DNA of 64,000 nucleotides from an uncultured bacterium (GTDB lineage Bacteria > Desulfobacterota > BSN033 > UBA1163). This document shows positions 44,981 through 59,386 of the stretch, piece by piece. Below the pieces are notes generated by a model, which was given only the letters and a program-made list of their open reading frames with translations, searched no databases and had not been told where the DNA came from. How positions within the stretch are numbered: position 1 is the first letter of the stretch; each line of letters starts with the position of its first letter. The stretch lies in assembly GCA_938002255.1 (NCBI GenBank), contig CALLAL010000009.1, positions 1 through 64,000 of the forward strand, given 5' to 3'. The position numbers and the translations under genes were made by a program.

Positions 44981-45270
44981 GTTTAACCTTATTCTTTCAT
45001 CTTTTGGATCTTATTGGAAAGATAAACGATTTTTTTTCCTTTTCTTTTAATCCATAGTGTGAAATTTTTTACTTGCTTTTTATTATTGGATGTGTAAAAT
45101 GGTTTCGCTCCAATGAATAACTTTGTTTTTACTATCCGACCAAATAGAAAGGAGGTGGGGGAACAAAGGGGATAACCGCGTCAACACATCAGAGTAGGTG
45201 AAAGAAGCAAAGGGTCATAAAACTTTTGTCACAGGGAGCTAATTGAATGATTCAAAGGGAGGGGAAGATT
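44981..45270. other. Leader region upstream of livK
   Basis: About 290 T-rich bases without a gene. A weak ATCTTT/AAAGAT stem (44999-45023) followed by a T-run, a predicted promoter (45073-45100) and a purine-rich tract with GGAGGTGGGGG near 45155 are present. That last tract resembles a ribosome binding site, but no good frame follows it. Confidence 0.45.
45073..45100 (+). promoter_or_regulatory. Predicted livK promoter
   Basis: TTGCTT (45073-45078), a 16-base spacer and TAAAAT (45095-45100, five of six matches to TATAAT). It would give a leader of about 160 bases before the livK ATG. Confidence 0.4.
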
Positions 45271-46479
45271 ATGAAAAAATTGTTCGTTTTTGCCATTCTT
45301 GTTGGATTTCTTAGTATGTGCCTGACACTCACCAGTGATGCCCAACCCATCCGAGTTGGAGCAGTTATTAATCTGACCGGGCCTGCTTCTACCTGGGGAC
45401 AGTTTCATGCCAAAGGCCACACCGATTATACCAAATATGTCAATGAAGTTAAGGGAGGAGTGGCTGGCAGAAAGATAGAGTTAACCATTGTTGATCATGC
45501 TTATAAACCTCCTGAAGGCGTGAAACTGGTTAAAAAGTTCTGTGAAGAGAAGGTCGATATGATCGCCACCTGGGATGCAGGAACAGGCATTATGATTAAA
45601 CCCATTATTCAGGAACATAAAATTCCCACCATCAACTATTCCACTTTCCAGGGACTCCTGAAACCTCCGATTGATTACATCTATCTTCCTTTTGGGAGTT
45701 ATGTCTTAGACTCCTATGCGGTCTTGGAGTATATCAAGGCCATCCACAAAGGGAAGGATGCGCCCAAAGTGGGTCTGCTGACCTATAATAATGCTTATGG
45801 AAAATCAATTCATGACCCCAGCAAAGAGTACGCCTCCAAACATGGTATCAATATTGTGGGCATCGAAGAGTTTCCACCTCCAACGGTTGATATCACCACA
45901 GAGGTCATGCGTTTAAAGGAAAAGGGGGCGGAATATCTCTTTGTCCAGATTCTTCCAGAAGCCATCATCCGCGCCTTAAAATCAATGGATCGTATCGGTT
46001 TCAATGTTCCGGTCTTCGGGACCTGGACTGCAACCGATCCAGATTTCTTTAAACTTGGAAAGGATGTCATTCGGGATCGCTTGGCGATGCAGTTCTGTGG
46101 AGTGCTTCCTGGCGATAAAGTATGGGGAATGAAACTGATAGATGATCTGAAGGCTCGCTATAAAACGGTGGATAAATTTGATACGTCTTACTGGGAAGGT
46201 GTTGTGGTGGCGATGATCATGGAACGGGCCATGCACAGGGCCTCTGGCCTCTATGGCAAAATCAATGCGGAGACGATCAACAAGGCCATGGAAACCTTCA
46301 AGAACGAAGATTTTGGTGGCCTCGTTCCTCCTGTGACCTATACCAAAGATAACCATGAAGGATCCTTTGTGGGCCGGATTGTTCAGATTCATGAGGATGC
46401 CACCTATACGCCCATGACCAATTTCTTCGTACCTGGCAAGGGCGAGATTAAGGTATTGAAAACCCTCAAGGGGAAATAG
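45271..46479 (+). CDS. LivK-type ABC transporter substrate-binding protein
   Basis: This is a periplasmic binding protein of the branched-chain amino acid (HAAT) family. From the ATG at 45271 it has 402 residues, with a signal peptide KKLFVFAILVGFLSMCLTL and likely cleavage near SDA/QP (about residue 24). The mature start IRVGAVINLTGPASTWGQF is typical of Peripla_BP_6 proteins. Members bind leucine-type amino acids, but also aromatic acids, urea and short amides, so the ligand is open. Adjacent CoA ligases favour a carboxylic acid. GGGAGGGG precedes the ATG. A TTG 24 bases upstream lies before that site. Confidence 0.88.
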   Translation: MKKLFVFAILVGFLSMCLTLTSDAQPIRVGAVINLTGPASTWGQFHAKGHTDYTKYVNEVKGGVAGRKIELTIVDHAYKPPEGVKLVKKFCEEKVDMIATWDAGTGIMIKPIIQEHKIPTINYSTFQGLLKPPIDYIYLPFGSYVLDSYAVLEYIKAIHKGKDAPKVGLLTYNNAYGKSIHDPSKEYASKHGINIVGIEEFPPPTVDITTEVMRLKEKGAEYLFVQILPEAIIRALKSMDRIGFNVPVFGTWTATDPDFFKLGKDVIRDRLAMQFCGVLPGDKVWGMKLIDDLKARYKTVDKFDTSYWEGVVVAMIMERAMHRASGLYGKINAETINKAMETFKNEDFGGLVPPVTYTKDNHEGSFVGRIVQIHEDATYTPMTNFFVPGKGEIKVLKTLKGK

Positions 46480-46509
46480 AGAGCGGCTTTGATGTGAAAG
46501 GAATGGTCC

Positions 46510-47337
46510 ATGAAAGCATTTCGGGGGACACCGAGTATCTATGCCTCCGCTCAGCCCAGCGAGCGCCGGGCTGAGCTGGAGGTCAAAAAAGTTACACTGA
46601 ATTTTGGGGGCGTGATGGCTCTCCACAATGTTGATCTTACTGTCCATACGGGAGAATTTATCAGTGTCATTGGCCCGAATGGCGCAGGCAAGACAAGCCT
46701 GATGAATTCCATTACAGGATACTATCATCCTCAAAGCGGAGAGATCATCTTTAATGGCGAAAATATTATGGGCCGTCACCCCCACGAGGTCACACAAAAA
46801 GGGATCGGGAGGACCTATCAAAATATTGAACTCTTTCCAGGCATGACCGTGCTTTCTAACATGCTTCTGGCCAGACATCTTTACTGCAACTATGGGTTTA
46901 GCTTGGCTTCTGTTTTCGCCCCCTCCGTCCGGAAAGAAGAGGTTCGCCATCGACAGGTTTTGGAAGAATTGATCGATTTTTTAGAGATGCAGCCTATTCG
47001 GAAAAAACTGGTGGGCTCCCTCCCTTACGGATTACGAAAGAGAGTGGAACTGGGCCGGGCCTTAGCCTTAGAACCCAAACTTTTGGTATTAGATGAGCCT
47101 TTTGCGGGTATGACCCTGGAGGAAAAGGAGGATATGGTCCGTTTCCTCTTAGAGTTGAACTCCGCCTGGGGGCAGACGATGATTCTGGTGGAACACGACA
47201 TGTCTGTTGTGATGAGTGTGTCCCAGAGGATCATGGTTTTAAATTTTGGAGAGAAGATCGCGGAGGGCACACCCGAAGAGATCCAGGGCCACCCAGAGGT
47301 GATCAAAGCCTATTTAGGGGATACAACCAAATTTTAA
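46510..47337 (+). CDS. LivG-type ABC transporter ATP-binding protein
   Basis: This ATPase of the HAAT-type importer has 275 residues. Walker A is GPNGAGKTSLMNS near 55-67, the signature is in SLPYGLRKRVELGRALALEP near 175 (LPYG in place of LSGG, as in many LivG proteins), Walker B is LLVLDEPFAGM, and the H-loop is LVEHDMSVVM. The N-terminal 25 residues (KAFRGTPSIYASAQPSERR) extend beyond the usual start. It lies 30 bases after livK. A CoA ligase gene separates it from the permeases. Confidence 0.9.
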   Translation: MKAFRGTPSIYASAQPSERRAELEVKKVTLNFGGVMALHNVDLTVHTGEFISVIGPNGAGKTSLMNSITGYYHPQSGEIIFNGENIMGRHPHEVTQKGIGRTYQNIELFPGMTVLSNMLLARHLYCNYGFSLASVFAPSVRKEEVRHRQVLEELIDFLEMQPIRKKLVGSLPYGLRKRVELGRALALEPKLLVLDEPFAGMTLEEKEDMVRFLLELNSAWGQTMILVEHDMSVVMSVSQRIMVLNFGEKIAEGTPEEIQGHPEVIKAYLGDTTKF

Positions 47338-47460
47338 TTGGAAGATCGGATGAATGGGTTCAGGGAATAGGGATTCAGGACAGCGTTTTTGTACATTGCA
47401 TTAAGATGAAAAAACTAAGCGTCCCCTATTTTCGTATTCCATTATCCAAGATGGGGTCAT

Positions 47461-49413
47461 GTGTCTATGGATGTCAGCAGAAACAAGCGTTTTGACGAAG
47501 CCACGGTCTTATCCTTTGCCCAGTTGACTTTGCCACAGATTTTAACCAAACAAGCAGAACGATTGGGAACGAATCAGATTGCCATTCGCGAGAAGATGTT
47601 TGGAATATGGCAGGCCTATACCTGGCAGGACTATTTTCGTTTTACCAAACAGGTTGCCTTAGGCCTTTATGCTCTTGGCCTGAAACGGGGAGAACACATC
47701 GGCCTGATCGTGGACAACCATGCGGAATGGCTTTTTAGCGAATTGGGAGCACAAGCGATTGGAGCCATTACCGTCAATATGTTTACGTCTTCCATTGCTA
47801 AAGAACTTACGGTCATCCTGAATCGGATTCAAGCCGTCTTTGCTATTGTGCAGGATCAGGAACAGGTGGATAAGTTGTTGGAGATGAAGTCTGAGCTTCC
47901 CCAAATCCGGAAGGTCATCTATATCGATCCAACCGGGATGAGAACCTATGCTGGCAATCCGTGGTTGATGAGTTTTCAGGAACTCCTGAAACTTGGGGAA
48001 GAGACTGACCAGAAAGAACCCAATCTTTTTCAAGAGGAGTTGTGGAAAGGGAAACCCGAAGAGGTTGCCCTGATGATCATGACCTCCGGAACGACAGGCA
48101 TTCCGAAACTTGCAATGATTTCCCATCGGAGTTTTACAGAGATAGCGAGAAAATGGATTGAAACTGCACCGATCGGTGTTGGAGACAACTGGATCTCCAT
48201 CACGCCGACGGCATGGATTGTTGATCAAATGTGGGGAATGGGGGTGTCCCCTTTGACCGGGATGGCGATGAACTTCCCGGAAACCTTAGAAACCCAAGCG
48301 GAGGATTTTCGTGAGATTGGACCGGTCGTCATCATCACCTCCTCGAGATTCTGGGAAGACCTTGCTTCCAAGATCCGGGTGAAGATGGCTGACTCAGGTT
48401 GGGTCAAGCGTAAGCTCTTTGATTTAGGCGAAAAGGTAGGGGGAGCTGTGGTGGACCGGGAATCGAAAAAAGAGGCGGTTCCATCCTATTTGCAATTCCT
48501 TCATAAACTGTTTGCAAAGATCGTCTATCGACCCTTGCTGGATCGAGTGGGATGTGCGCAGATTCGTGCAGCGATTACCGGAGGTCATCCCATCAGTCCG
48601 GATGTCATTCGTTTTTTCAGGGCAAAGGGACTCAATCTAAAGCATGCTTATGGATTGACGGAAGGAGGAGGCGTGTTTCAGGTTCAACCTGACAAAGAGG
48701 TAAAACCGGAGTCTGTTGGAAAACCCCTGCCCAGGACTGAGATCAAGATTGCCGAGGATCAGGAGGTTTTGGTAAAAACGCCCTCCTGCTTTGTAGGTTA
48801 TTACCAGGATCCGGAGGCGACGAAGAAGGCACTCCGGGATGGATGGCTTCACACGGGTGATGCAGGTTACATCGATGACGACGGACATCTCTTAATTATT
48901 GGCCGAAAAGAAGAGATCATGCGGACCAAAGGCGGAGAGGCCATCTCCTCAGACTTTATAGAAACGAGGTTAAAGTTCAGTCCCTACATTAAAGAGGCTG
49001 TGGTCTGGGGTGAAGGCCGTGACTATATCACGGGATTCATCAATATCGACTTTGGAAATGTAGGGAGTTGGGCAGAGGATCGTATGATTCCTTACACGAC
49101 CTATACAGACCTTTCTCAACGGCCTGAAGTCGAGGAGTTAATCCTTAAAGAAATTCGCCATGTCAACACCCAATTGCCCAAACCAATGAGATTGAAAAAG
49201 ATTATTCTCCTTTATAAACTTCTCGATGCCGACGATGAAGAGTTGACCCGAACCGGAAAAGTACGAAGAAAATTTGTCTATGAGCAATATCTCAATCTGA
49301 TTGAAGCGATGTATGCTGACCAGAAGGAACTTGAGGTCACGGGCAAGGTCCGTTACCGAGATGGCCATGTGGGAACGATTACCACAAAGGTAAAAATATT
49401 GACGGTGGAATAG
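47461..49413 (+). CDS. AMP-forming acyl-CoA ligase (long-chain-type), embedded in liv cluster
   Basis: This class I adenylate-forming enzyme activates a carboxylic acid to its CoA thioester with ATP. In the 650-residue protein, the P-loop-like A3 motif is MIMTSGTTGIPKLAMISHRS near 205-224. YGLTEGGGVFQVQP is near 400, and GWLHTGDAGYIDDDGHLLIIGRKEEI near 460-485 is the hinge region. The catalytic lysine is probably in RTGKVRRKFVYEQY near 600. The size and form resemble long-chain fatty acyl-CoA synthetases (FadD15-like). It lies between livG and livH on the same strand, so uptake and activation are probably co-expressed. GTG (47461) and ATG (47467) are both possible starts. Confidence 0.87.
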   Translation: MSMDVSRNKRFDEATVLSFAQLTLPQILTKQAERLGTNQIAIREKMFGIWQAYTWQDYFRFTKQVALGLYALGLKRGEHIGLIVDNHAEWLFSELGAQAIGAITVNMFTSSIAKELTVILNRIQAVFAIVQDQEQVDKLLEMKSELPQIRKVIYIDPTGMRTYAGNPWLMSFQELLKLGEETDQKEPNLFQEELWKGKPEEVALMIMTSGTTGIPKLAMISHRSFTEIARKWIETAPIGVGDNWISITPTAWIVDQMWGMGVSPLTGMAMNFPETLETQAEDFREIGPVVIITSSRFWEDLASKIRVKMADSGWVKRKLFDLGEKVGGAVVDRESKKEAVPSYLQFLHKLFAKIVYRPLLDRVGCAQIRAAITGGHPISPDVIRFFRAKGLNLKHAYGLTEGGGVFQVQPDKEVKPESVGKPLPRTEIKIAEDQEVLVKTPSCFVGYYQDPEATKKALRDGWLHTGDAGYIDDDGHLLIIGRKEEIMRTKGGEAISSDFIETRLKFSPYIKEAVVWGEGRDYITGFINIDFGNVGSWAEDRMIPYTTYTDLSQRPEVEELILKEIRHVNTQLPKPMRLKKIILLYKLLDADDEELTRTGKVRRKFVYEQYLNLIEAMYADQKELEVTGKVRYRDGHVGTITTKVKILTVE

Positions 49414-49446
49414 GATCCCTCGGGAAGAGGGTGAGGGAGGTTGTTC

Positions 49447-50325
49447 ATGGAATTCTTTTTTCAGCTCCTAATTCAGGGACTATCCGTTGGATTTCTTTAT
49501 GCGATTGCCGCCCTGGGGTTTGTCATGATTTTTAAGTCCTCGAGTGTTCTCAATTTCGCCCATGGGGACCTCTTAGCGATTGGCGCCTTCTTTTTTCTGG
49601 TTCTTTCTTCATGGTGGAACTTACCCATTCCGATCGCCTTTTTGATCACCTTGGTTGGAAGTTTTACATTGGGTTTTATCATTGAACGCCTTTTTCTCAG
49701 ACCCCTCATCGGAGAATCCCTTATCCTGGTCATCATGTTAACCGTTGGACTTGCTTCGATGTTCAAAGGATTGATGCTCTTCATTTTTGGAGGCAATCTC
49801 TTTGCCTACCGTGAATTTTTGCCTACCACTCTCTCGATTCAGTGGGGGAATATCAATATCCCGCCGGTCTATGTGGCTTCCTTTATCATTAGCATTATTT
49901 TTCTACTTCTCTTTGGCCTTTTCTTTAAGTACTCCTCTCAGGGGATTTACATGAGATCGGTAGCGGACAATCAGACGGCTGCCCTCTCACTGGGAGTTCA
50001 CGTGAGGCGGGTCTTTGCTCTCTCGTGGGCGATCGCTGCTCTGGTTTGCGCCATGAGTGGAATCATTCTTGGGATTATCAGTGGCGTCAATGTCCACAGT
50101 ATCAGCATCATTGGACTCAAAGTCTTTCCTGTAGTCATCCTCGGAGGACTGGAAAGCATCGGAGGAGCCATCATTGGCGGCCTGATCATCGGACTTTTAG
50201 AAACGTTTACGGGAGGGTATGTCTCAACCTCTCTTAGAGAAGTTGTCCCTTACATTGCCCTTGTCTTCATCCTCCTGGTGAAACCTTACGGCCTCTTTGG
50301 CTTGGTGGAAATTGAGCGTGTGTGA
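49447..50325 (+). CDS. LivH-type ABC transporter permease
   Basis: This inner-membrane permease of the HAAT importer has 292 residues and about eight hydrophobic segments. The family N-terminus FQLLIQGLSVGFLYAIAALGFVMIFKSS (in two parts) is clear. Near the C-terminus is VILGGLESIGGAIIGGLIIGLLE, which includes the EAA-like contact region for the ATPases. The ATG at 49447 has GGGAGG six bases upstream. A TTG two codons earlier abuts the binding site and is not preferred. Confidence 0.92.
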   Translation: MEFFFQLLIQGLSVGFLYAIAALGFVMIFKSSSVLNFAHGDLLAIGAFFFLVLSSWWNLPIPIAFLITLVGSFTLGFIIERLFLRPLIGESLILVIMLTVGLASMFKGLMLFIFGGNLFAYREFLPTTLSIQWGNINIPPVYVASFIISIIFLLLFGLFFKYSSQGIYMRSVADNQTAALSLGVHVRRVFALSWAIAALVCAMSGIILGIISGVNVHSISIIGLKVFPVVILGGLESIGGAIIGGLIIGLLETFTGGYVSTSLREVVPYIALVFILLVKPYGLFGLVEIERV

Positions 50326-50330
50326 TTCAA

Positions 50331-50376
50331 AACGATGAACCTTAACCCTTCAACAATCAAAACACGGTTCATCGTT
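50331..50376. repeat. Inverted repeat in the livH-livM gap
   Basis: AACGATGAACC (50331-50341) and its exact reverse complement GGTTCATCGTT (50366-50376) flank a 24-base loop. It sits six bases after the livH stop and before the livM ribosome binding site. No T-run follows, so it may protect or process the mRNA rather than end it. Confidence 0.75.
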
Positions 50377-50392
50377 ACATGGTGGAGGCAGA

Positions 50393-51463
50393 ATGAGAAA
50401 ACTGAGATTTCATCCCTGTGGAAATTATAAAGAGAGATACGAAGAGGAATTGACGATTTTTGAAACCGATTTTGGAAGGCTCTGGATGTTGATCGGGCTT
50501 TTTTTGCTCTTTGTGGTGATTCCTTTGATCAGCAGTTCTTATATCCTCTATGTGCTCAATCATATCGGAATTTTTGCCATCGCCGCTGTGGGGCTTAACC
50601 TTCTGATTGGGTTCACCGGTCAAATCTCCCTTGGCCACGGAGCCTTCTTTGGTGTAGGAGGTTATGCCGCAGCGATCCTGACCACCAAATTGGGTTTCCC
50701 TTTTTATCTTTCTTTGATCTCAGCAGGCATCGTCACAGCCCTGGTGGGTTTGGTCTTTGGCCTTCCTTCGGCCCGACTGAAACACCTTTACTTGACCATT
50801 GCTACTTTGGCAGGCCAGTTTATTCTTCAATTTCTTTTTGTGAACTGGGAAGACCTTACAGGTGGCTCCATGGGAATCATCCTTCCGAGAGCAACACTTT
50901 TCGGCATTAGTCTGAAGAGTGATCATGCCTATTTTTACGTGATTTTTATCTGTTTCGTAGGAATGCTCTGGATTGCCAAAAACCTTCTCCGTACCCGCTA
51001 CGGGAGAGCCTTCATTGCCATTCGTGATAATGACCGTGCTGCTGAGGGCATGGGCATTCCTATTTTCCACTATAAACTTTTAGCTTTTGCCATCAGTTCT
51101 TTCTATGCTGGATTTGCAGGGGCTCTTTGGACACACTACTTAGCGAGTATCACACCTGACCCTTATACCTTATTTCTCTCCGTCGAATTTATTGCCATGA
51201 TTATCATCGGAGGGTTAGGGAGCCTTACGGGCAGTGTCTTTGGAGCTATTTTTATCACATCCCTCAATGAGATCTTAAGCCATGCCTCGGAGTTCTTCAT
51301 GAATCTTCCTGCCCTCGCGGGGATTGCCTTGACCATTGCACCCCTTCGTGAGTTCGTCTTCGGATTAGCAATCGTTCTTTTCATTATCTTCGAACCCCGA
51401 GGTTTGGCAGAGGTATGGCGGATCATACGGTCAAGCTTCAGGCTCTGGCCTTTTTCTTATTAA
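50393..51463 (+). CDS. LivM-type ABC transporter permease
   Basis: This second permease of the importer has 356 residues. After a charged cytoplasmic N-terminus (about 1-35) come eight to ten hydrophobic segments. Family signatures are GLNLLIGFTGQISLGHGAFFGVGGYAAAIL (in two parts, about 65-95), YGRAFIAIRDNDRAAEGMGIPI near 202-223 and MIIIGGLGSLTGSVFGAIFITSL. GGAGG precedes the ATG. It pairs with LivH to form the channel. Confidence 0.92.
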   Translation: MRKLRFHPCGNYKERYEEELTIFETDFGRLWMLIGLFLLFVVIPLISSSYILYVLNHIGIFAIAAVGLNLLIGFTGQISLGHGAFFGVGGYAAAILTTKLGFPFYLSLISAGIVTALVGLVFGLPSARLKHLYLTIATLAGQFILQFLFVNWEDLTGGSMGIILPRATLFGISLKSDHAYFYVIFICFVGMLWIAKNLLRTRYGRAFIAIRDNDRAAEGMGIPIFHYKLLAFAISSFYAGFAGALWTHYLASITPDPYTLFLSVEFIAMIIIGGLGSLTGSVFGAIFITSLNEILSHASEFFMNLPALAGIALTIAPLREFVFGLAIVLFIIFEPRGLAEVWRIIRSSFRLWPFSY

Positions 51464-51562
51464 GAGGGATGTCACAGATTCAAAAAATAGATTACACAGA
51501 TAACCCGCCACCAGATAGGGATGATCTCCCTGCAGCAGGGGTGAGTGGGTGACGAGGCAGAT

Positions 51563-52366
51563 ATGGATGACAATATTCTACTGCAACTTAATAATATCAG
51601 CGTGGTTTATTCTGATGTGATTCAGGTCCTTAAAGGAGTCTCCCTTCTCATCAGAAAGAAACAAATCGTCTCTTTACTGGGCAGCAATGGGGCAGGCAAA
51701 ACCACCACGCTTAAAGCCATTTCAGGACTTCTTAAACCTGAAAATGGTAAAGTCACTGAAGGGTCCATTATCTATGACGGCCATCCCATTCATAATATGT
51801 CCCCTGAGCAGATTACACGATTGGGTATCATTCAGGTCATGGAGGGACGCCAACCCTTTAAGTTACTGACGGTTGAGGAGAACCTCAGAGTAGGAACAGC
51901 CACCCGATGGGGAAAACCGTATAAAAAGGATTTGGAACTGGTCTATCATTATTTTCAACCCCTCGTCGCAAGAAAGCATAAATTGGCAGGATATTGCAGT
52001 GGTGGGGAACTTCAGATGCTCGTCATGGGTCGGGCATTGATGGCCCAGCCGAAGCTCCTGCTGTTAGATGAACCCTCTCTTGGATTGGCTCCTTTTTTGG
52101 TGAGAGAGATTTTCGAAATTGTCAAAAGGATCAATGAAGAGCAGGGAACAACGATTATGCTCGTGGAACAGAATGCCAATATGGCCCTGCAGATCGCGAC
52201 TTATGGCTATGTGATGGAGAATGGCAAGATCATGATGGAGGATGAGGCGACACGTTTGAGAGAGAATCCCGATGTTAAAGAATTTTATTTGGGAACGGCA
52301 AGTTCAGGAGCCTTGAAATCCTACAAGGATGTAAAGGCTTACAAACGGCGTAAACGATGGTTGTAA
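51563..52366 (+). CDS. LivF-type ABC transporter ATP-binding protein
   Basis: This second ATPase of the importer has 267 residues. Walker A is GSNGAGKTTTLKAISG near 39-54, the signature is CSGGELQMLVMGRALM (about 146), Walker B is LLLLDEPSLGLAP, and the H-loop region reads MLVEQNANMAL. The ATG at 51563 follows GAGG. A GTG at 51545 would add six residues. The C-terminal tail ALKSYKDVKAYKRRKRW is basic and extra to most homologues. Confidence 0.91.
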   Translation: MDDNILLQLNNISVVYSDVIQVLKGVSLLIRKKQIVSLLGSNGAGKTTTLKAISGLLKPENGKVTEGSIIYDGHPIHNMSPEQITRLGIIQVMEGRQPFKLLTVEENLRVGTATRWGKPYKKDLELVYHYFQPLVARKHKLAGYCSGGELQMLVMGRALMAQPKLLLLDEPSLGLAPFLVREIFEIVKRINEEQGTTIMLVEQNANMALQIATYGYVMENGKIMMEDEATRLRENPDVKEFYLGTASSGALKSYKDVKAYKRRKRWL

Positions 52367-52409
52367 GAAGAATGCTATAGGTAAGAGAGAAGGAGGGAGA
52401 AACTACTCC

Positions 52410-52433
52410 AACGGGCAACTCAGGTTGCCCGTT
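52410..52433. repeat. Strong hairpin between livF and the second ligase gene
   Basis: AACGGGCAAC (52410-52419) and GTTGCCCGTT (52424-52433) form a perfect ten-base stem with a TCAG loop. No T-run follows (CAAAATC), so it is an imperfect terminator at best. It may lower read-through from the transporter genes or stabilise the livF mRNA end. Confidence 0.75.
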
Positions 52434-52504
52434 CAAAATCTAAGCTTTGTGAAATATTGCACCGATCAGCCATGATCATTCCGGAATGATAGAAAGGAGA
52501 TGAT

Positions 52505-54088
52505 ATGGACCAAATCGATATCCATATAGGAGAGATTTTAGCCAGGAATGCAAGACTCTATCCAGATGACGTGGCGCTCGTGGAGAGGGTACCTGCAGAG
52601 GGAAAAAGGAGAGAAATTACCTGGAAACAATTTGATGAACAGGCGAATCGATTTGCCAACATCCTCATGCAGAAGGGAATTCAGAAAGGAGATAAGGTGA
52701 TTCACCTGATGATGAACTCCCTTGAATGGTTGATTGCCTACTTTGGCATTATCCGAACAGGAGCATGGGCTGTCCCCCTCAATTTCCGTTTTTCGGGAAG
52801 TGACATTAAATATTGTTGTGATGTGGCAGAACCCAAAGCCATGGTCTTTGGAGAGGAATTTATTGATCGGGTCACGGAAATTCATAAAGACCTTTCTACT
52901 CTCAAACACTATATTTTTGTTGGTAAAGAATCTCCTTCCTATGCTCAACCCTATGATCGTCTTATCGAAAAAGTACCTGCCACTGCCCCTCCTGTTTCGA
53001 TCCGATATGATGATCCCTGTGGACTTTACTTTACTTCAGGCACGACCGGGCAGCCCAAACCCATTCTTTTGACCCATAAGAATATGGTCTGCGCCTGCAT
53101 CACAGAGAATCATCACCACTATCAGACCAAGAGAGATACCTTTGTTCTTATTCCTCCTCTTTATCATACCGGTGCCAAAATGCACTGGTTCGGTAGTTTC
53201 ATCGTTGGCGGAAAAGGGGTCATCTTAAAAGGTATCCAGCCGGAATGGGTTCTTGAAGCGATCAGCGAAGAAAAGGCTACCCTCATCTTTCTTCTCGTCC
53301 CCTGGGCCCAGGACATTCTGTTAAAACTGGATAGTGGACAGCTCAAATTAAAAGATTACAACCTTAGCCAATGGAGGTTGATGCATATCGGAGCCCAACC
53401 GGTTCCTCCTTCGCTGGTCAAACACTGGAAGGAATATTTTCCAGCGATGCAGTATGATACCAATTATGGCCTCAGCGAATCTACAGGCCCGGGATGCGTC
53501 CATTTAGGGATCGAGAATGAACACAAGGTTGGCGCCATTGGCCTACCTGGGTTTAATTGGGAAGCCCGCATCGTGGATGAAGAAGGCAATGATGTGAAGA
53601 AAGGAGATGTAGGAGAGTTGGTCGTTCGCGGAGATGGCGTGATGCGAGAGTATTATAAAAACCCGGAGGCTACAGCAAAAGCGATCCGAAACGGCTGGCT
53701 CTATACAGGGGATATGGGAAGGGTGGACGAGGATGGGTTTATCTATCTGGTTGACCGAAAGAAAGACCTGATCATCTGCGGAGGAGAAAATGTTTTTCCC
53801 GTAGAAGTAGAGGATTTTCTCCATACCCTCCCTGGCGTGAAGGATGTGGCAGCCATTGGCCTGCCGGACGAACGATTGGGAGAGGTGGTGGGGGTCATCG
53901 TTGAGGTGGTCCCGGGAAAGACCCTTACGGAAGAAGAAGTCCTCAGATTTTGTGAGCCCCTTCCAAAATATAAACGTCCAAGAAAAGTCTTTTTCGGAGA
54001 GGTTCCAAGGAATCCCACGGGTAAGATCGAAAAGCCTAAATTGAGAAAGAAGTATATCGGGATGGAAGAAACCTTTAAAATTAAATAG
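52505..54088 (+). CDS. AMP-forming acyl-CoA ligase, second copy
   Basis: This adenylate-forming CoA ligase has 527 residues, shorter than the first copy. It has LYFTSGTTGQPKPILLTHKN near residues 177-196, NYGLSESTGPG near 320, GWLYTGDMGRVDEDGFIYLVDRKKD near 398 and the lysine motif PRNPTGKIEKPKLRKKY near 505. This length is like benzoate-, hydroxybenzoate-, short-chain or bile-acid-CoA ligases. The acid used cannot be assigned. Its position between an organic-acid-type importer and a benzoyl-CoA-reductase-type cluster makes an aromatic or cyclic acid plausible. AAAGGAGATGAT precedes the ATG. Confidence 0.87.
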   Translation: MDQIDIHIGEILARNARLYPDDVALVERVPAEGKRREITWKQFDEQANRFANILMQKGIQKGDKVIHLMMNSLEWLIAYFGIIRTGAWAVPLNFRFSGSDIKYCCDVAEPKAMVFGEEFIDRVTEIHKDLSTLKHYIFVGKESPSYAQPYDRLIEKVPATAPPVSIRYDDPCGLYFTSGTTGQPKPILLTHKNMVCACITENHHHYQTKRDTFVLIPPLYHTGAKMHWFGSFIVGGKGVILKGIQPEWVLEAISEEKATLIFLLVPWAQDILLKLDSGQLKLKDYNLSQWRLMHIGAQPVPPSLVKHWKEYFPAMQYDTNYGLSESTGPGCVHLGIENEHKVGAIGLPGFNWEARIVDEEGNDVKKGDVGELVVRGDGVMREYYKNPEATAKAIRNGWLYTGDMGRVDEDGFIYLVDRKKDLIICGGENVFPVEVEDFLHTLPGVKDVAAIGLPDERLGEVVGVIVEVVPGKTLTEEEVLRFCEPLPKYKRPRKVFFGEVPRNPTGKIEKPKLRKKYIGMEETFKIK

Positions 54089-54829: not shown

Positions 54830-54892
54830 CCAAGATTCATCAGGAGGGGTGTTTGAGGCCTGTATTAAATTGTGTTATGCATATTTTTAAAG

Positions 54893-55672
54893 ATGATTCT
54901 TACGTTAGGCATTGATATTGGTTCAGCGCAGTCCAAGGGTATGCTCCTTGGTGAGGAGGGTCCCCTCAATTCCTTCGAATGTGCTTCTGGAGTGGATTTT
55001 AAGCGGACGGCATTAAGGATTCAGGAAGAATTACTCTCCCGTTCAGGGAAGTCACTGGATGAGATCAAACGAACAGTCGCTACGGGATATGGCTCCAAGT
55101 CGGTCGTTTTTGCAGACGACATGAGACCCGATATCGTCTGTCTTGCTAAAGGGATTTCCTCTCTTCTGCCAACGGTGAGAACCCTTATCGATGTTGGCGA
55201 CCTTTACACAAAGATACTTAGGACAGATGGAAATGGTCAAGTTCACAATTTTTTATTGAGCGGAAAGTGTGCCGGCGGCAGTGGGCGAATCCTTCAGGTC
55301 ATCGCTAAAGTGCTTCAGATCAAGGTTGAGGACATTGGCGAACTGTCGTTAAAGTCGAAAAAAAGAGTGGAGTTTAGTACAGGATGTGCCGTTTTTGCAG
55401 AATCAGAGGCAATCTCCCGGCTCTCGCAGGAGGTAACCAAAGAGGATCTTCTGGCCGGTTTGCATCGAGCCCTTGCGGCTCAGTTCAACAGTCTGGCAGA
55501 ACGAGTCGGTATTGAAATGGATGTGGCAATGACCGGCGGTGGGGCAAAAGATATTGGTTTGGTCCAATCCTTCAGCGAGATCAGAAAACATCCCATTCTT
55601 GTTCCTCCCAATCCCCAGATGACAGCCGCTCTGGGAGCGGCCATCATTGCAAGAGAAAGTTTAACGGGATAA
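54893..55672 (+). CDS. BcrA/BadF/HgdC-family ATPase (activator), divergent phosphate-2 motif
   Basis: This is an ASKHA-fold ATPase of the activator family that drives electrons at very low potential into 2-hydroxyacyl-CoA dehydratases or benzoyl-CoA reductases. The 259-residue protein has the phosphate-1 loop GIDIGSAQSKGMLL and two iron-sulfur-bridging cysteines, in GKCAGGSGRILQ (about 125) and STGCAVFAESE (about 165). That is the same spacing as in HgdC. The adenosine motif is TGGGAKDIGLV. The usual phosphate-2 motif DIGGQDSK is replaced by DVGDLYTK near residue 101, a marked change in a catalytic segment. The ATG at 54893 has only a weak binding site; a GTG at 54872 is the alternative. Confidence 0.85.
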   Translation: MILTLGIDIGSAQSKGMLLGEEGPLNSFECASGVDFKRTALRIQEELLSRSGKSLDEIKRTVATGYGSKSVVFADDMRPDIVCLAKGISSLLPTVRTLIDVGDLYTKILRTDGNGQVHNFLLSGKCAGGSGRILQVIAKVLQIKVEDIGELSLKSKKRVEFSTGCAVFAESEAISRLSQEVTKEDLLAGLHRALAAQFNSLAERVGIEMDVAMTGGGAKDIGLVQSFSEIRKHPILVPPNPQMTAALGAAIIARESLTG

Positions 55673-55785
55673 GATTGAAAGATTGTGTTGGATAAGGTAT
55701 ATGAAAAAGTGAAGGAGCAGTTTATTTCTAATAATCAAGAGAGATATCGGGTTGATGAACCAGATTAAAAAGAAGGAGACGATTT

Positions 55786-56946
55786 ATGGAGCTTACACAA
55801 GGCAAGGCTCTCTCAACCGTTGAAAGGCTTTATCAAGACTATGGATTTAGGGCAAGAGAACTGAAAGGGCAAGGGGAAAAGATTATCGGTTATGTCTGTT
55901 CCTTTGTTCCCCTTGAACTCATCAAAGCTTCAGGTGCCATCCCCTTTCGTATCAGAGGGAATATTTTTGAGCCTATTACCAAAGGCGATACCCTCCTTGA
56001 GACAATCGTCTGTCCCTATTATCGGAGTTGTTTTGATCTCTCTGTAAAAGATAAGTATGAATTTCTCTCTGGCGTGGTGATTCCCCATGGGTGTGACAGT
56101 ATGGTGCGAAGTTTTAGTACCTGGAGTTATGGACTTCCTTATTCTTATTTCCATTTTGTCAATATTCCAACCGTTTGTGAAGAGTCGTCCTTTGAATTCT
56201 TTGAAGAGGAGCTGAACACCTTTAGAAAGAGTCTTGAAAAATTTTTTGGAAAGACTATCACCGATGAAGAGCTGAGCCGAGTCATCCGAATCTATAATGA
56301 AAACAGAGAGAAGGTAAGAGCCCTCTATGAATTAAGAAAGGCCGATCCCCCTCTTATTTCCGGGACTGAATTGACCATGACCCTGACAGCAGGTTCAAGC
56401 TTGCCCATTGAAGAAGCCAATGACCTTTTTGATCAAGTCGTGGCAGAGGTAAAAGCAAGGGGGAGTTCTCCCCTCAAGAAAGGCCCACGTATTTTAATCG
56501 ATGGGGCCTGTCTCGACCATATTGAACTCATCAAGCTCGTTGAGGATTTGGGAGGTCATGTCGTGGCTGATGCGATCTGCAATGGTGCCAGGGATCATTT
56601 TCCCAAAACCGATGTGACTCTCCCTCCCATCAAAGCGCTGTCCCAGCGCTATCTGGATAAGGTCAATTGCCCAAAGACTTACCGGGCCAATAAAGCAGGT
56701 ACTTTTGAAGGAGATATTGCAAACCGATTTGGTGATATTGGAGCCTATGCAAAGGAATTCAAGGCAGAAGGAGCCATTCTTTATGTTTATAAATATTGTG
56801 ATCCTTTTGGTTTTGAGGTTCCTGCAAGAAAGGCTTATTATCAATCCCTCAATCTTCCCATGCTCCATTTGGAAGATATCTATTCCGCAGGAACGATGGG
56901 GCAATTGAGAACTCGGATTCAGGCCTTTTTGGAGATGATCGGGTAA
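55786..56946 (+). CDS. 2-hydroxyacyl-CoA dehydratase / benzoyl-CoA reductase family subunit (BcrC/BzdN-like)
   Basis: This 386-residue protein belongs to the HgdB/BcrC family whose members bind a [4Fe-4S] or double-cubane cluster. Conserved-type cysteines occur in IIGYVCSFVPLELIKASGAIP (in two parts; about residue 31), ETIVCPYYRSC (about 70), VIPHGCDSM (about 105) and the C-terminal YKYCDPFGFEVPARKAYY near 345, close to the family C-D motif. The length fits BcrC/BzdN better than the longer partner. AGAAGGAG precedes the ATG. It lies between an ATPase gene and the larger subunit gene, on the same strand. It would be one half of the catalytic dimer. Confidence 0.85.
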   Translation: MELTQGKALSTVERLYQDYGFRARELKGQGEKIIGYVCSFVPLELIKASGAIPFRIRGNIFEPITKGDTLLETIVCPYYRSCFDLSVKDKYEFLSGVVIPHGCDSMVRSFSTWSYGLPYSYFHFVNIPTVCEESSFEFFEEELNTFRKSLEKFFGKTITDEELSRVIRIYNENREKVRALYELRKADPPLISGTELTMTLTAGSSLPIEEANDLFDQVVAEVKARGSSPLKKGPRILIDGACLDHIELIKLVEDLGGHVVADAICNGARDHFPKTDVTLPPIKALSQRYLDKVNCPKTYRANKAGTFEGDIANRFGDIGAYAKEFKAEGAILYVYKYCDPFGFEVPARKAYYQSLNLPMLHLEDIYSAGTMGQLRTRIQAFLEMIG

Positions 56947-57087
56947 GTGAACATGAGAGGATAAAGCCATTGGTAGGAGCCCGTTTTAACAACGTCAACA
57001 CGTTATGGCCGATGCCTTTTCTATCTCCCCAACAGGCCTCTTTACCTTAACCTTTGCAAAAACCTTTTAAAATAGGGAGGCTGACTT

Positions 57088-58491
57088 ATGGCTGAGGAAC
57101 AGAAGGAAGCAAAACCCAAGAAGAGGATGACCGCTACCAAGGCAGCGGCTTCGATCGGTCCCATGGTGAAAGAATTTATTACCGGGACGTTACAGGCCCG
57201 AGCAGAGGGAAAACAGAAACTAGCTTATACCTTTATCGTTTGCCATCATGAAGAGATCTTTAGAGCCATGGATGTTGTTCCGATATGGACGGAAAACTTT
57301 GCTGGCATCTGCGGGGCTAAAAGAGATGCGGAGCGGTTTCTTCAAAGAGCAGAATCCTTGGGGCTTTCCCGCTCCTTATGCACCTATGCTCTCTGTGGTA
57401 TCGGATTTGATCAATGGAGAGAGGAATTGGGACAAATGCCTCCGGATGCTCCCTGGGGCGGGATGGTTAAACCTGATTTTATGATTTCCAGCGGTCAGAT
57501 CCTGTGCGATCCGAGATCAAAGTGGTACCAGGCCTCTCAACAGTTCATGCCGGATGTTCCAATCTACAATATCGATCTTCCCTATCCCCTTTTTCAGAGG
57601 GATCAAGATCACAGGGAAGTTCTGGGTTATTACCACCGGTACATCGTCAAGCAGTTGCGAGGATTGGTTGCCTTTCTTGAAGAGCAAACCAAAAAGAAGA
57701 TGGATTACGATCGGCTGAGGGAGCTGGTGGACCTGAGCGATCGAACCTGGAATCTGATCGAAGAAACGTACGATCTTCGAAAAGCCATTCCTTGTCCTAT
57801 GGGAACTGGGGATGCCATGAATACCATGGTCCCCATCAACTTTATGATGGCCACTCAAAAAGCCTATGATTTTTTCGTTGAGCTTAAGAAGGAACTGGAA
57901 GAAAAGATTGCAAGGGGTGAAGGGGAAGTTGAAAATGAGAAATACAGACTCATGTGGGGCGGGGGATTGCCTTCCTGGTTTGCGTTGACCGATTTTAATT
58001 ATTTTAATAGTAAGGGCGCCTCTTTCCCCGTAGAAACGACTTATCGAATGGTTGCCCCGCTCAAAGAGATGGATCTTCCAGAAACCAAAGATCCCATTGA
58101 GCATCTAGCCTGGAGATGGCTTGGATACTGGACCTTCTGGTATGATAAAGCGAGGAAACGCCCCGGTTCAGAGCCAGATGTAGAACGTTTAATCAATCGG
58201 ATCGAGGAGTATAAAATTGACGGAGTGGTCATGCACGAAGCCTTTTCCTGTCGGACCTGGCATGTGGGTCTCATCTGGCAATTGCACCAATTGGCCAAGA
58301 TCTATAAACCGATTCCTGTCTATGTGGTTGGGAAGGATGGAAAGAAAGAGAAAGTATATCGGGAGCTTCCTTCGCTGATTTTGGAAAGTGATATTATTGA
58401 TATCACCTCTTACTCAGAAGTTGATACGAGAAATAAGATCGACGCCTTTATTGAGACTCTGGAATCCATTCGAATGAATAGAGCCGCCTGA
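57088..58491 (+). CDS. 2-hydroxyacyl-CoA dehydratase / benzoyl-CoA reductase family subunit (BcrB/BzdO-like)
   Basis: This is the larger catalytic-type subunit, 467 residues, related to BcrB/BzdO/HgdA. Cysteines likely to hold the cluster lie in FIVCHHEEIFRAMDVVPIW (about 52), FAGICGAKRDAERFL (about 75), CTYALCGIGFDQWREEL (about 97-102) and HEAFSCRTWHVGL near 390. The WGGGLPSWFAL segment near 290 matches the mid-region of this family. The N-terminal 35 residues are Lys/Ala rich and extend beyond the core. GGGAGG precedes the ATG. With the 386-residue neighbour it should form the substrate-reducing dimer. Confidence 0.84.
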   Translation: MAEEQKEAKPKKRMTATKAAASIGPMVKEFITGTLQARAEGKQKLAYTFIVCHHEEIFRAMDVVPIWTENFAGICGAKRDAERFLQRAESLGLSRSLCTYALCGIGFDQWREELGQMPPDAPWGGMVKPDFMISSGQILCDPRSKWYQASQQFMPDVPIYNIDLPYPLFQRDQDHREVLGYYHRYIVKQLRGLVAFLEEQTKKKMDYDRLRELVDLSDRTWNLIEETYDLRKAIPCPMGTGDAMNTMVPINFMMATQKAYDFFVELKKELEEKIARGEGEVENEKYRLMWGGGLPSWFALTDFNYFNSKGASFPVETTYRMVAPLKEMDLPETKDPIEHLAWRWLGYWTFWYDKARKRPGSEPDVERLINRIEEYKIDGVVMHEAFSCRTWHVGLIWQLHQLAKIYKPIPVYVVGKDGKKEKVYRELPSLILESDIIDITSYSEVDTRNKIDAFIETLESIRMNRAA

Positions 58492-58543
58492 TCCCCCATT
58501 CCCCACCGGGAGGAGGGAGGGGGTGATCCTTTGAGAGACACCC

Positions 58544-59386
58544 TTGTCAGATTATTTTGCAGGAATTGACATCGGTTCAACCATGACCAAGGTGGTGATT
58601 CTGAAAGAAGAGATCATCGCCTCTGTCGTTGGCCCTACAGGCCCGGAACAGCGCCGCCTGGCAAACAAAGTTATGGAAGAGACGCTCCGTAAAGCCTCTC
58701 TCTCTTTTCCACAGATTACCTATATTGTCTCTACAGGCTACGGAAGGATCAATGTCCCTTTCTCAGATCGACAAGTCACGGAGGTGACCTGTCATGCCAG
58801 AGGGATTGTCCATCTCTTTTCAGGAGCCCGAACCATCATCGATATCGGTGGCCAAGATTCGAAGGGGATCAAGATCGATGCCTCCGGCAAGGTCGTCGAT
58901 TTTGTAATGAACGATAAGTGTGCGGCTGGAAGTGGTCGATTCATCGAGGTGATTGCCGATACCCTTGGGATCCCGCTCGATCAGGTGGGAGCTCTCTCTC
59001 TTCAAAGCAGCCATCCTGTTAAAATCAGTAATATCTGTACGATCTGGGCACAACAGGAGGTGGTGTCAAGTTTGGCAGAAGGAGTCCCTGTGGCGGACTT
59101 GCTGGCAGGTATTCATTACTCTCTTGCAGACAGAATTGTAAGAATGGTCAGTCGACTCAGAGTAGAAGACTTGGTCATCCTAACAGGCGGAGGGGCCAAG
59201 AATAAAGGATTGATCAAAGCCCTTTCAGAGCAGTTAAATCGTTCTGTTCTCGTGCCCCCAAATCCCCTGATCACAGGCGCCCTCGGCGCCGCTCTCATTG
59301 GAAAAGAGATGGTCGAAAAAGCGAGAAAGAATAAGACTCCGATCGAAACCCGGGAACGTGTCTTTAAAGAAGTCGAAATCTTATGA
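58544..59386 (+). CDS. BadG/BcrD/HgdC-family ATPase (activator), canonical
   Basis: This second ASKHA ATPase has 280 residues and keeps all usual motifs: GIDIGSTMTKVVIL, phosphate-2 DIGGQDSKGIKID near residue 102, cluster cysteines in DKCAAGSGRFIEV (about 126) and SNICTIWAQQE (about 165), and TGGGAKNKGLIKAL near 213. Start choice: an in-frame stop lies just upstream at 58532, and TTG at 58544 is the only codon that keeps the first strand, although the strong GGAGGGAGGGGG tract is about 30 bases away. Two unlike ATPases beside two catalytic subunits is the make-up of class I benzoyl-CoA reductase, not of a simple dehydratase, which has one. Confidence 0.87.
   Translation: MSDYFAGIDIGSTMTKVVILKEEIIASVVGPTGPEQRRLANKVMEETLRKASLSFPQITYIVSTGYGRINVPFSDRQVTEVTCHARGIVHLFSGARTIIDIGGQDSKGIKIDASGKVVDFVMNDKCAAGSGRFIEVIADTLGIPLDQVGALSLQSSHPVKISNICTIWAQQEVVSSLAEGVPVADLLAGIHYSLADRIVRMVSRLRVEDLVILTGGGAKNKGLIKALSEQLNRSVLVPPNPLITGALGAALIGKEMVEKARKNKTPIETRERVFKEVEIL

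Follow-up and report, generated by a model that had tools for sequence, protein, structure and literature searches.

Benzoyl-CoA reductases, 2-hydroxyacyl-CoA dehydratases and the act1-N-O-act2 module

The ATP-driven radical enzymes of the benzoyl-coenzyme A (CoA) reductase/2-hydroxyacyl-CoA dehydratase (BCR/HAD) family catalyze reductions whose potentials are among the most negative in biology. BzdNOPQ of Aromatoleum sp. CIB (PDB 8S02) and ThnBCDE of NaphS2 and N47 each combine two catalytic-type subunits with two activases. MbdONPQ, the 3-methylbenzoyl-CoA reductase of Thauera chlorobenzoica (PDB 9GAI, 9G87), has two unequal small activases. HadBC-HadI (PDB 3O3M, 4EHT) and FldBC-FldI are grouped as (R)-2-hydroxyacyl-CoA dehydratases. 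The double-cubane cluster protein DCCP, which has DCCP-R as its reductase (PDB 6ENO, 7YYL), is built from a single kind of catalytic subunit and lacks a site for acyl-CoA. A four-gene module of this family is present in the genome of an uncultured bacterium of the Desulfobacterota (lineage UBA1163). It is located in a stretch of 64,000 nucleotides, the window (contig CALLAL010000009.1, positions 1 to 64,000). The four genes lie on one strand in the order ATPase-subunit-subunit-ATPase (act1-N-O-act2):

54893 to 55672, plus strand: act1 (activase 1), a BadF/BadG/BcrA/BcrD-type ATPase, 259 amino acids from an ATG
55786 to 56946, plus strand: N, an HgdB/BcrC/BzdN-type subunit, 386 amino acids
57088 to 58491, plus strand: O, an HgdA/BcrB/BzdO/HadB-type catalytic subunit, 467 amino acids
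58544 to 59386, plus strand: act2 (activase 2), 280 amino acids

An alternative GTG start at 54872 would give act1 266 amino acids. Both ATPases match BcrAD_BadFG (PF01869; 167 and 207 bits), and N and O match HGD-D (PF06050; 266 and 180 bits), in each case far above the Pfam cut-off. None of the four proteins reaches a curated equivalog in NCBIfam, and act1 and act2 pass the general activase model TIGR00241 only. N reaches its top score, 209 bits, with the model of the double-cubane reductase (cut-off 350), followed by BzdN (149 bits, cut-off 454). O scores highest with HadB (93 bits, cut-off 750) and gives 84 bits with BzdO (cut-off 449). The BzdQ model reaches 179 bits on a module activase (cut-off 380), and the HadC model reaches 135 bits on the module (cut-off 700). 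An earlier sequence-only reading had described these genes as a two-ATPase, two-subunit BCR/HAD member. The positions, sizes, and order of the four genes were borne out, they are conserved in relatives, and by its best tree and NCBIfam scores the module stands outside every characterized clade tested. To judge from its sequence, the module is a distinct variant within the BCR/HAD radical enzymes that lies outside every characterized family.

Phylogeny and predicted folds

Family members were taken as those with O at 54-94% identity in a scan of named genomes. The O family forms a single clade in the best tree (support 99.6). It lies apart from BzdO with Thn (support 100), from HadB with its relatives, and from MbdO. 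A joint clade of O and MbdO was rejected (p-AU 0.006). A joint clade of O and BzdO/Thn was neither favored nor firmly rejected (p-AU 0.078), and O stands outside the BzdO clade in the best tree; long branches limit the resolution of this tree. Act1 and act2 form neighboring clades, possibly together with DCCP-R (support 93, not decisive). Alternatives for the activases, including descent from the BzdPQ or MbdPQ pairs, were not rejected (p-AU 0.2, 0.25, and 0.1).

The AlphaFold model of N has a pLDDT of 91, and its closest fold is BzdN, followed by DCCP and HadC. The model of O has a pLDDT of 79, with HadB, MbdO, and BzdO tied as the closest folds (VIA-align, Z 33.5 to 35). Residues 72-79 and 97-101 of O, at the cluster site, fall below 50. 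Because of this low confidence, the pocket residues of O were mapped onto BzdO by alignment only, with the numbering of PMC11971306; BzdO position 302 is outside the alignable part.

Comparison with characterized enzymes

BzdNOPQ and Thn share with the module the two catalytic-type subunits and two activases, the three cysteines and Glu65 in O, and the six double-cubane cysteines in N. However, identity to them is 24% for O and 30% for N, far under the curated cut-offs. O forms its own clade and has Arg143 and Arg389 in place of BzdO His131 and Glu381, and unlike Bzd and Thn the module cluster is without ferredoxin, Dch, Had, and Oah. Kinship with the Azoarcus BzdNOPQ had been proposed from the size of the ATPases. 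This kinship is unproven: all subunits are far under the Bzd equivalog cut-offs, and the joint clade of O with BzdO/Thn gives the p-AU of 0.078 noted above. The gene order, ATPase first, had also been described as different from both the Azoarcus and the Thauera type, yet the bzdNOPQ order appears in Dehalococcoidia and Syntrophorhabdus-type relatives as N-O-act2-act1. The module was also considered as an orthologue of the NaphS2 THN-CoA reductase. This was rejected, since NaphS2 possesses a Thn-type cluster (C423) and the module (C62) separately; the former gives 407 bits to BzdO and the latter 64 bits. The O subunit of the NaphS2 module is 81% identical to that of the window.

The two small, unequal activases are also found in MbdONPQ, where MbdP has an altered second phosphate motif, GGQTMK, that parallels act1. 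MbdO is equally close to O in fold and likewise has an Arg following the last cluster cysteine. MbdN is without the three distal double-cubane cysteines, whereas N keeps them. HadBC-HadI has the same fold, the three cysteines and Glu in O, and activases of the HadI/HgdC kind. In contrast, the dehydratases use one homodimeric activator, and the 47 complete modules each encode two different activases. HadC lacks the double-cubane cysteine set that N has in full. DCCP has the same six cysteines as N, but the module adds O, a subunit of the acyl-CoA type.

Cofactor and active-site residues

The cluster cysteines of O, C98, C140, and C388, correspond to BzdO Cys95, Cys128, and Cys380, and each is present in 80 of the 80 family members. 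E69 corresponds to the catalytic Glu65 of BzdO (79/80), and Tyr97 and Tyr298 of BzdO are also kept. BzdO His131 lies beside the catalytic water and is a proposed acid/base (PMC11971306). All 80 family members have Arg (Arg143 in O) at this position, where MbdO has Phe, HadB has Val, and NaphS2 Thn has His. BzdO Trp46 is replaced by Cys52 in 53 family members and by Asp in 23, and Gln274 is replaced by Leu. O also possesses an extra cysteine, Cys103, that is invariant in the family.

N has the full set of six cysteines that form the site of a double-cubane [8Fe-9S] cluster (C38, C76, C103, C265, C295, and C338). The set is complete in 49 of 72 N relatives, the window clade included, and is incomplete in HadC and MbdN. 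The three distal cysteines are changed to Ser/Ser/Ile (pattern SCCSIC) in a Syntrophorhabdus-type clade (L124-L148), and at the same loci Cys52 of O is changed to Asp or Asn. From the aligned sequences, these two changes may represent a single evolutionary event.

The activases differ from each other in the second phosphate motif. Act2 of the window has the canonical DIGGQDSK, and across the family the motif is DIGGQDxK or a near variant. In act1 the motif varies by group: members of the window clade read DVGDLYTK, those of Dehalococcoidia DIGGQFTK, and those of the Syntrophorhabdus-type clade D[IV]G[AS]Q[FY]SR. Act1 and act2 each retain the pair of cluster cysteines (C126 and C165 in act1 of the window), as do their relatives. 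Act1 is predicted to hydrolyze ATP poorly.

Distribution and gene order of the family

A total of 80 O-family loci were found, 47 of which have all four genes together. The hosts are Syntrophaceae-like metagenome-assembled genomes (MAGs), Desulfobacterales, strain NaphS2, Syntrophorhabdus, Dehalococcoidia and other Chloroflexi, and one Acidobacteria MAG. Complete modules are arranged either as act1-N-O-act2, in the window clade, or as N-O-act2-act1. A group of loci of the Desulfobacterales type (L092, L093, L095, L098, L099, and L105) has a one-activase form, N-O-act2, and tblastn found no act1 in their flanks. At a few loci, N-O is accompanied by no activase at all. Some relatives possess stand-alone four-gene operons with sensor and sigma-54 regulator genes.

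O is 90-94% identical across genera of the window's family; N is 76-83% and the ATPases are mostly 69-80% identical. Identity of O is 79-82% in two other families and then drops to 66% for a paralogue and to 35% or less beyond it. Because of the high identity within the family and the sharp drop after it, O is, as far as identities can tell, the well-kept core protein of a distinct subfamily.

Two groups of loci stand somewhat apart. At L127, L132, and L172, an O-type gene adjoins a CoA ligase and no N subunit is adjacent. L065 (genome G013, contig C162) is a sister lineage to the O family, with 31% identity for O and 40% for N. Its operon contains genes for a CoA ligase, two enoyl-CoA hydratases, two family III CoA-transferases, a thiolase-like protein, an HMG-CoA-synthase-like protein, and a 3-hydroxyacyl-CoA dehydrogenase.

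The transporter and ligase operon

The module forms the tail of an operon for a Liv-type ABC transporter and acyl-CoA ligases, the upstream part of which spans 45247-54088. The genes ahead of the module are:

45247 to 46479, plus strand: LivK-type periplasmic substrate-binding protein, start of the operon
46510 to 47337, plus strand: LivG-type ABC ATPase
47461 to 49413, plus strand: AMP-forming acyl-CoA ligase of 650 amino acids, within the transporter operon
49441 to 50325, plus strand: LivH-type permease
50393 to 51463, plus strand: LivM-type permease
51545 to 52366, plus strand: LivF-type ABC ATPase
52505 to 54088, plus strand: AMP-forming acyl-CoA ligase of 527 amino acids
54167 to 54778, minus strand (opposite to the operon): WrbA, not kept at syntenic loci

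Synteny was judged where the contigs of relatives extend far enough. Loci from the same genus and from a second genus of the family (L054-L056, L066, and L067) retain the transporter and ligase genes followed by act1-N-O-act2. Relatives of the 527-amino-acid ligase (52-54% identity) adjoin the module in Chloroflexi, Syntrophorhabdus, and Syntrophus MAGs. The nearest solved relatives of LivK and of the ligases are mixed and point to no single substrate.

Benzoyl-CoA metabolism of the host genomes

The module had been described as lacking the rest of a pathway. This is correct locally, as no gene for a ferredoxin, ring hydratase, dehydrogenase, or ring hydrolase is present in the 44-64 kb region that was read in detail. 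It is not correct for the genome as a whole. Contig C16 contains a complete class II (Bam) benzoyl-CoA pathway, including an AFOR-type BamB (651 amino acids) and CCG, FAD, FlpD, and ETF proteins like those of Bam clusters. The sequence-only reading had also pointed to had and oah homologues as worth seeking elsewhere in the genome, and both were found on C16: Had scores 493 bits (cut-off 339) and Oah scores 549 bits (cut-off 464). A glutaryl-CoA dehydrogenase on the same contig scores 469.5 bits against a cut-off of 470.

Similar equipment is present in many of the other hosts. BamB relatives with 62-82% full-length identity occur in 19 of 28 other module-carrying genomes checked (20/29 with the window genome), and Oah is present in 22 of the 28. 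Co-occurrence was examined in 395 Desulfobacterota genomes, with the O family counted at 54% identity or more. Oah is found in 25 of 30 genomes with the O family and in 79 of 365 others (Fisher p 1.4e-11, a genome-level value that ignores kinship). Counted by family, which is rougher but safer, 6/6 families with the module hold Oah versus 32 of about 106 families (p 0.0005). The co-occurrence with BamB and Oah so places the module in aromatic degraders that already own an ATP-free reductase. Because of this co-occurrence and of the Bam pathway on C16, the module is probably not the benzoyl-CoA reductase of its host. An ordinary benzoyl-CoA reductase of the window organism was set aside, given the full Bam cluster, Had, and Oah on C16.

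Two further loci with activases or HGD-D proteins are present in genome G000. On contig C23 (L052, 1332-3087, minus strand), a second activase pair groups with the BzdP- and BzdQ-like activases of NaphS2 Thn. It adjoins a metallo-beta-lactamase-fold protein and an HpaB-family protein near the contig end, where catalytic subunits may be cut off. On contig C36 (L050, 5395-9481, minus strand), two HGD-D proteins, each with six double-cubane cysteines, accompany one activase of 250 amino acids.

Gene neighbors of the relatives

The neighbors of relatives with O above 54% identity were explored in several separate lineages. Dehalococcoidia have a family III CoA-transferase followed by tightly spaced N-O-act2-act1-GlcD-GlcF, with IorBA convergent. 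L122 (O 65%) contains a ligase, IorAB, N-O, a D-2-hydroxyacid dehydrogenase, a B12 mutase, an AcrC-like acyl-CoA dehydrogenase, EtfBA, and another ligase. This layout resembles the ldhA-hadAIBC-acdB-etfBA cluster. At L126, N-O is found together with IorAB, ligases, a TRAP transporter, and an OYE-type reductase; L087, L096, and L104 have a fused GlcDF with a ligase and a thiolase-like gene. The CoA-transferase, D-2-hydroxyacid dehydrogenase, acyl-CoA dehydrogenase, and Etf genes beside module relatives are like those of Had systems. In other sulfate reducers, growth on acetone induces related two-subunit pairs (PMC7888143, PMC8084838). From their description, these pairs are like L122 in having ligases, a 2-oxoacid oxidoreductase, and a B12 mutase. 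A different setting is seen in a Dehalococcoidia MAG (L109, 6497-15583), where N-O is flanked on one side by a formate-dehydrogenase-like molybdoprotein and on the other by a 4-hydroxybenzoyl-CoA reductase-like complex of the XDH family.

Possible function of the module

The module is tentatively read as encoding a BCR/HAD-family radical enzyme that depends on ATP, acts on acyl-CoA, and performs a 2-hydroxyacyl-CoA dehydratase-type reaction on an acid feeding the Bam pathway; from the sequences compared, this is held at somewhat less than even confidence. The Liv transporter would import an acid, probably aromatic, and the adjacent ligases would activate it to the CoA ester. Act1 and act2, homologous activases that from their sequences have the cysteines for a bridging [4Fe-4S] cluster, could form an asymmetric heterodimer with act2 as the main ATPase and act1 as a modified partner. 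Driven by ATP hydrolysis, electrons of low potential would pass via the double cubane in N to the [4Fe-4S] cluster of O, where the acyl-CoA would be reduced to a ketyl radical. The likeliest net reaction would be 2-hydroxyacyl-CoA to 2-enoyl-CoA, or the reverse, and the product would be passed on to the cell's own beta-oxidation and class II benzoyl-CoA pathway. A dehydratase-type reaction is favored because the neighbors of the relatives are enzymes of 2-hydroxyacids, 2-oxoacids, and CoA transfer. Benzoyl-CoA itself appears to be served already, since the host has a class II reductase, Had, and Oah, and Oah and BamB co-occur with the module. The act2-only loci fit a single activator ATPase of the dehydratase kind. 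Several observations weigh against a dehydratase. A pair of unlike ATPases and a double-cubane N subunit are features seen in reductases (BzdNOPQ and DCCP), and HadC lacks the cysteine set. O is far under the HadB cut-off (93 versus 750 bits), and a clade of O and HadB alone was rejected (p-AU 0.002). No 2-hydroxyacid enzyme or CoA-transferase lies beside the module in the window, and the neighbor genes of the relatives are plain occurrences, uncorrected for background frequency.

The two-ATPase and double-cubane architecture speaks for a class I-type aryl-CoA reductase, the main rival, which is regarded as rather unlikely and ranks behind the dehydratase favored by the neighbors. Such an enzyme would dearomatize or reductively dehydroxylate a substituted benzoyl-CoA, for example 3-hydroxybenzoyl-CoA, spending one ATP per electron on a ring beyond the reach of the class II enzyme, and its product would join the Bam pathway. 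The non-identical ATPases and six-cysteine N resemble BzdNOPQ, O keeps the equivalents of Glu65, Tyr97, and Tyr298, the module co-occurs with Oah and BamB, and the operon appears suited to acid import and CoA activation. NaphS2 sets a precedent, with class II genes for benzoate and a separate cluster of BzdNOPQ type that acts on an intermediate from naphthalene (PMC2988823, PMC12016498), and it carries the module as a further cluster. However, His131 (absent from MbdO too), Trp46, and Gln274 of BzdO are replaced by Arg, Cys/Asp, and Leu, the module has no adjoining genes for ferredoxin or for ring processing, some loci are without act1, and the 2-hydroxyacid and 2-oxoacid neighbors are left unexplained. 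A literature search on 3-hydroxybenzoyl-CoA dehydroxylation found nothing usable. A dehydratase running in reverse is a further, improbable scheme. A 2-enoyl-CoA would be hydrated to 2-hydroxyacyl-CoA, the CoA would be transferred, GlcDF or a D-2-hydroxyacid dehydrogenase would carry out an oxidation, and IorAB would carry out the decarboxylation. The whole would amount to an alpha-oxidation without oxygen, taking one carbon off the acyl chain. GlcDF, IorAB, and the CoA-transferase of Dehalococcoidia would all run oxidatively in a degrader, and L122 unites a ligase, an acyl-CoA dehydrogenase, a D-2-hydroxyacid dehydrogenase, and IorAB. The later enzymes are missing from the window operon, though, and IorAB may serve aromatic 2-oxoacids or ferredoxin supply instead. 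To our knowledge, no pathway of oxygen-free alpha-oxidation of this kind has been described, which also counts against it. Least probable is a DCCP-like reductase of a small substrate other than acyl-CoA. The leading curated hit of N, to the double-cubane reductase at 209 bits (cut-off 350), and the stand-alone operons with sensor and sigma-54 regulators would suit it, but O keeps Glu65, Tyr97, and Tyr298 of the acyl-CoA enzymes, which DCCP lacks, and acyl-CoA ligases and a CoA-transferase adjoin the module at many loci.

Implications for anaerobic aromatic degradation

The sequence-only reading had suggested a new dearomatizing or dehydrating enzyme with a different substrate or electron donor. 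A different substrate does appear likely, and the class II pathway elsewhere in the genome argues against ordinary benzoyl-CoA reduction. Both a dearomatizing and a dehydrating reaction would fit this, with the neighbors of the relatives leaning toward dehydrating. It is possible, though somewhat doubtful, that the module represents a third functional branch of the BCR/HAD enzymes, with a double cubane, two activases, and one degenerate ATPase, that works alongside a class II reductase. It would catalyze a step that has been assigned to no enzyme, either dehydroxylation or dearomatization of a substituted aryl-CoA or a 2-hydroxyacyl/enoyl-CoA interconversion for oxygen-free alpha-oxidation.

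The natural variants of the module offer a contrast for what the double cubane and the second ATPase each contribute, as in one clade the three distal cysteines of N are lost together with a Cys-to-Asp change in O, and act1 is present or absent. The branch is conserved and widespread, mostly in aromatic-degrading strict anaerobes that possess an ATP-free enzyme. It will be interesting to determine why these organisms still spend ATP. The answer would fill a missing step of aromatic-acid degradation in sediments and methanogenic consortia.

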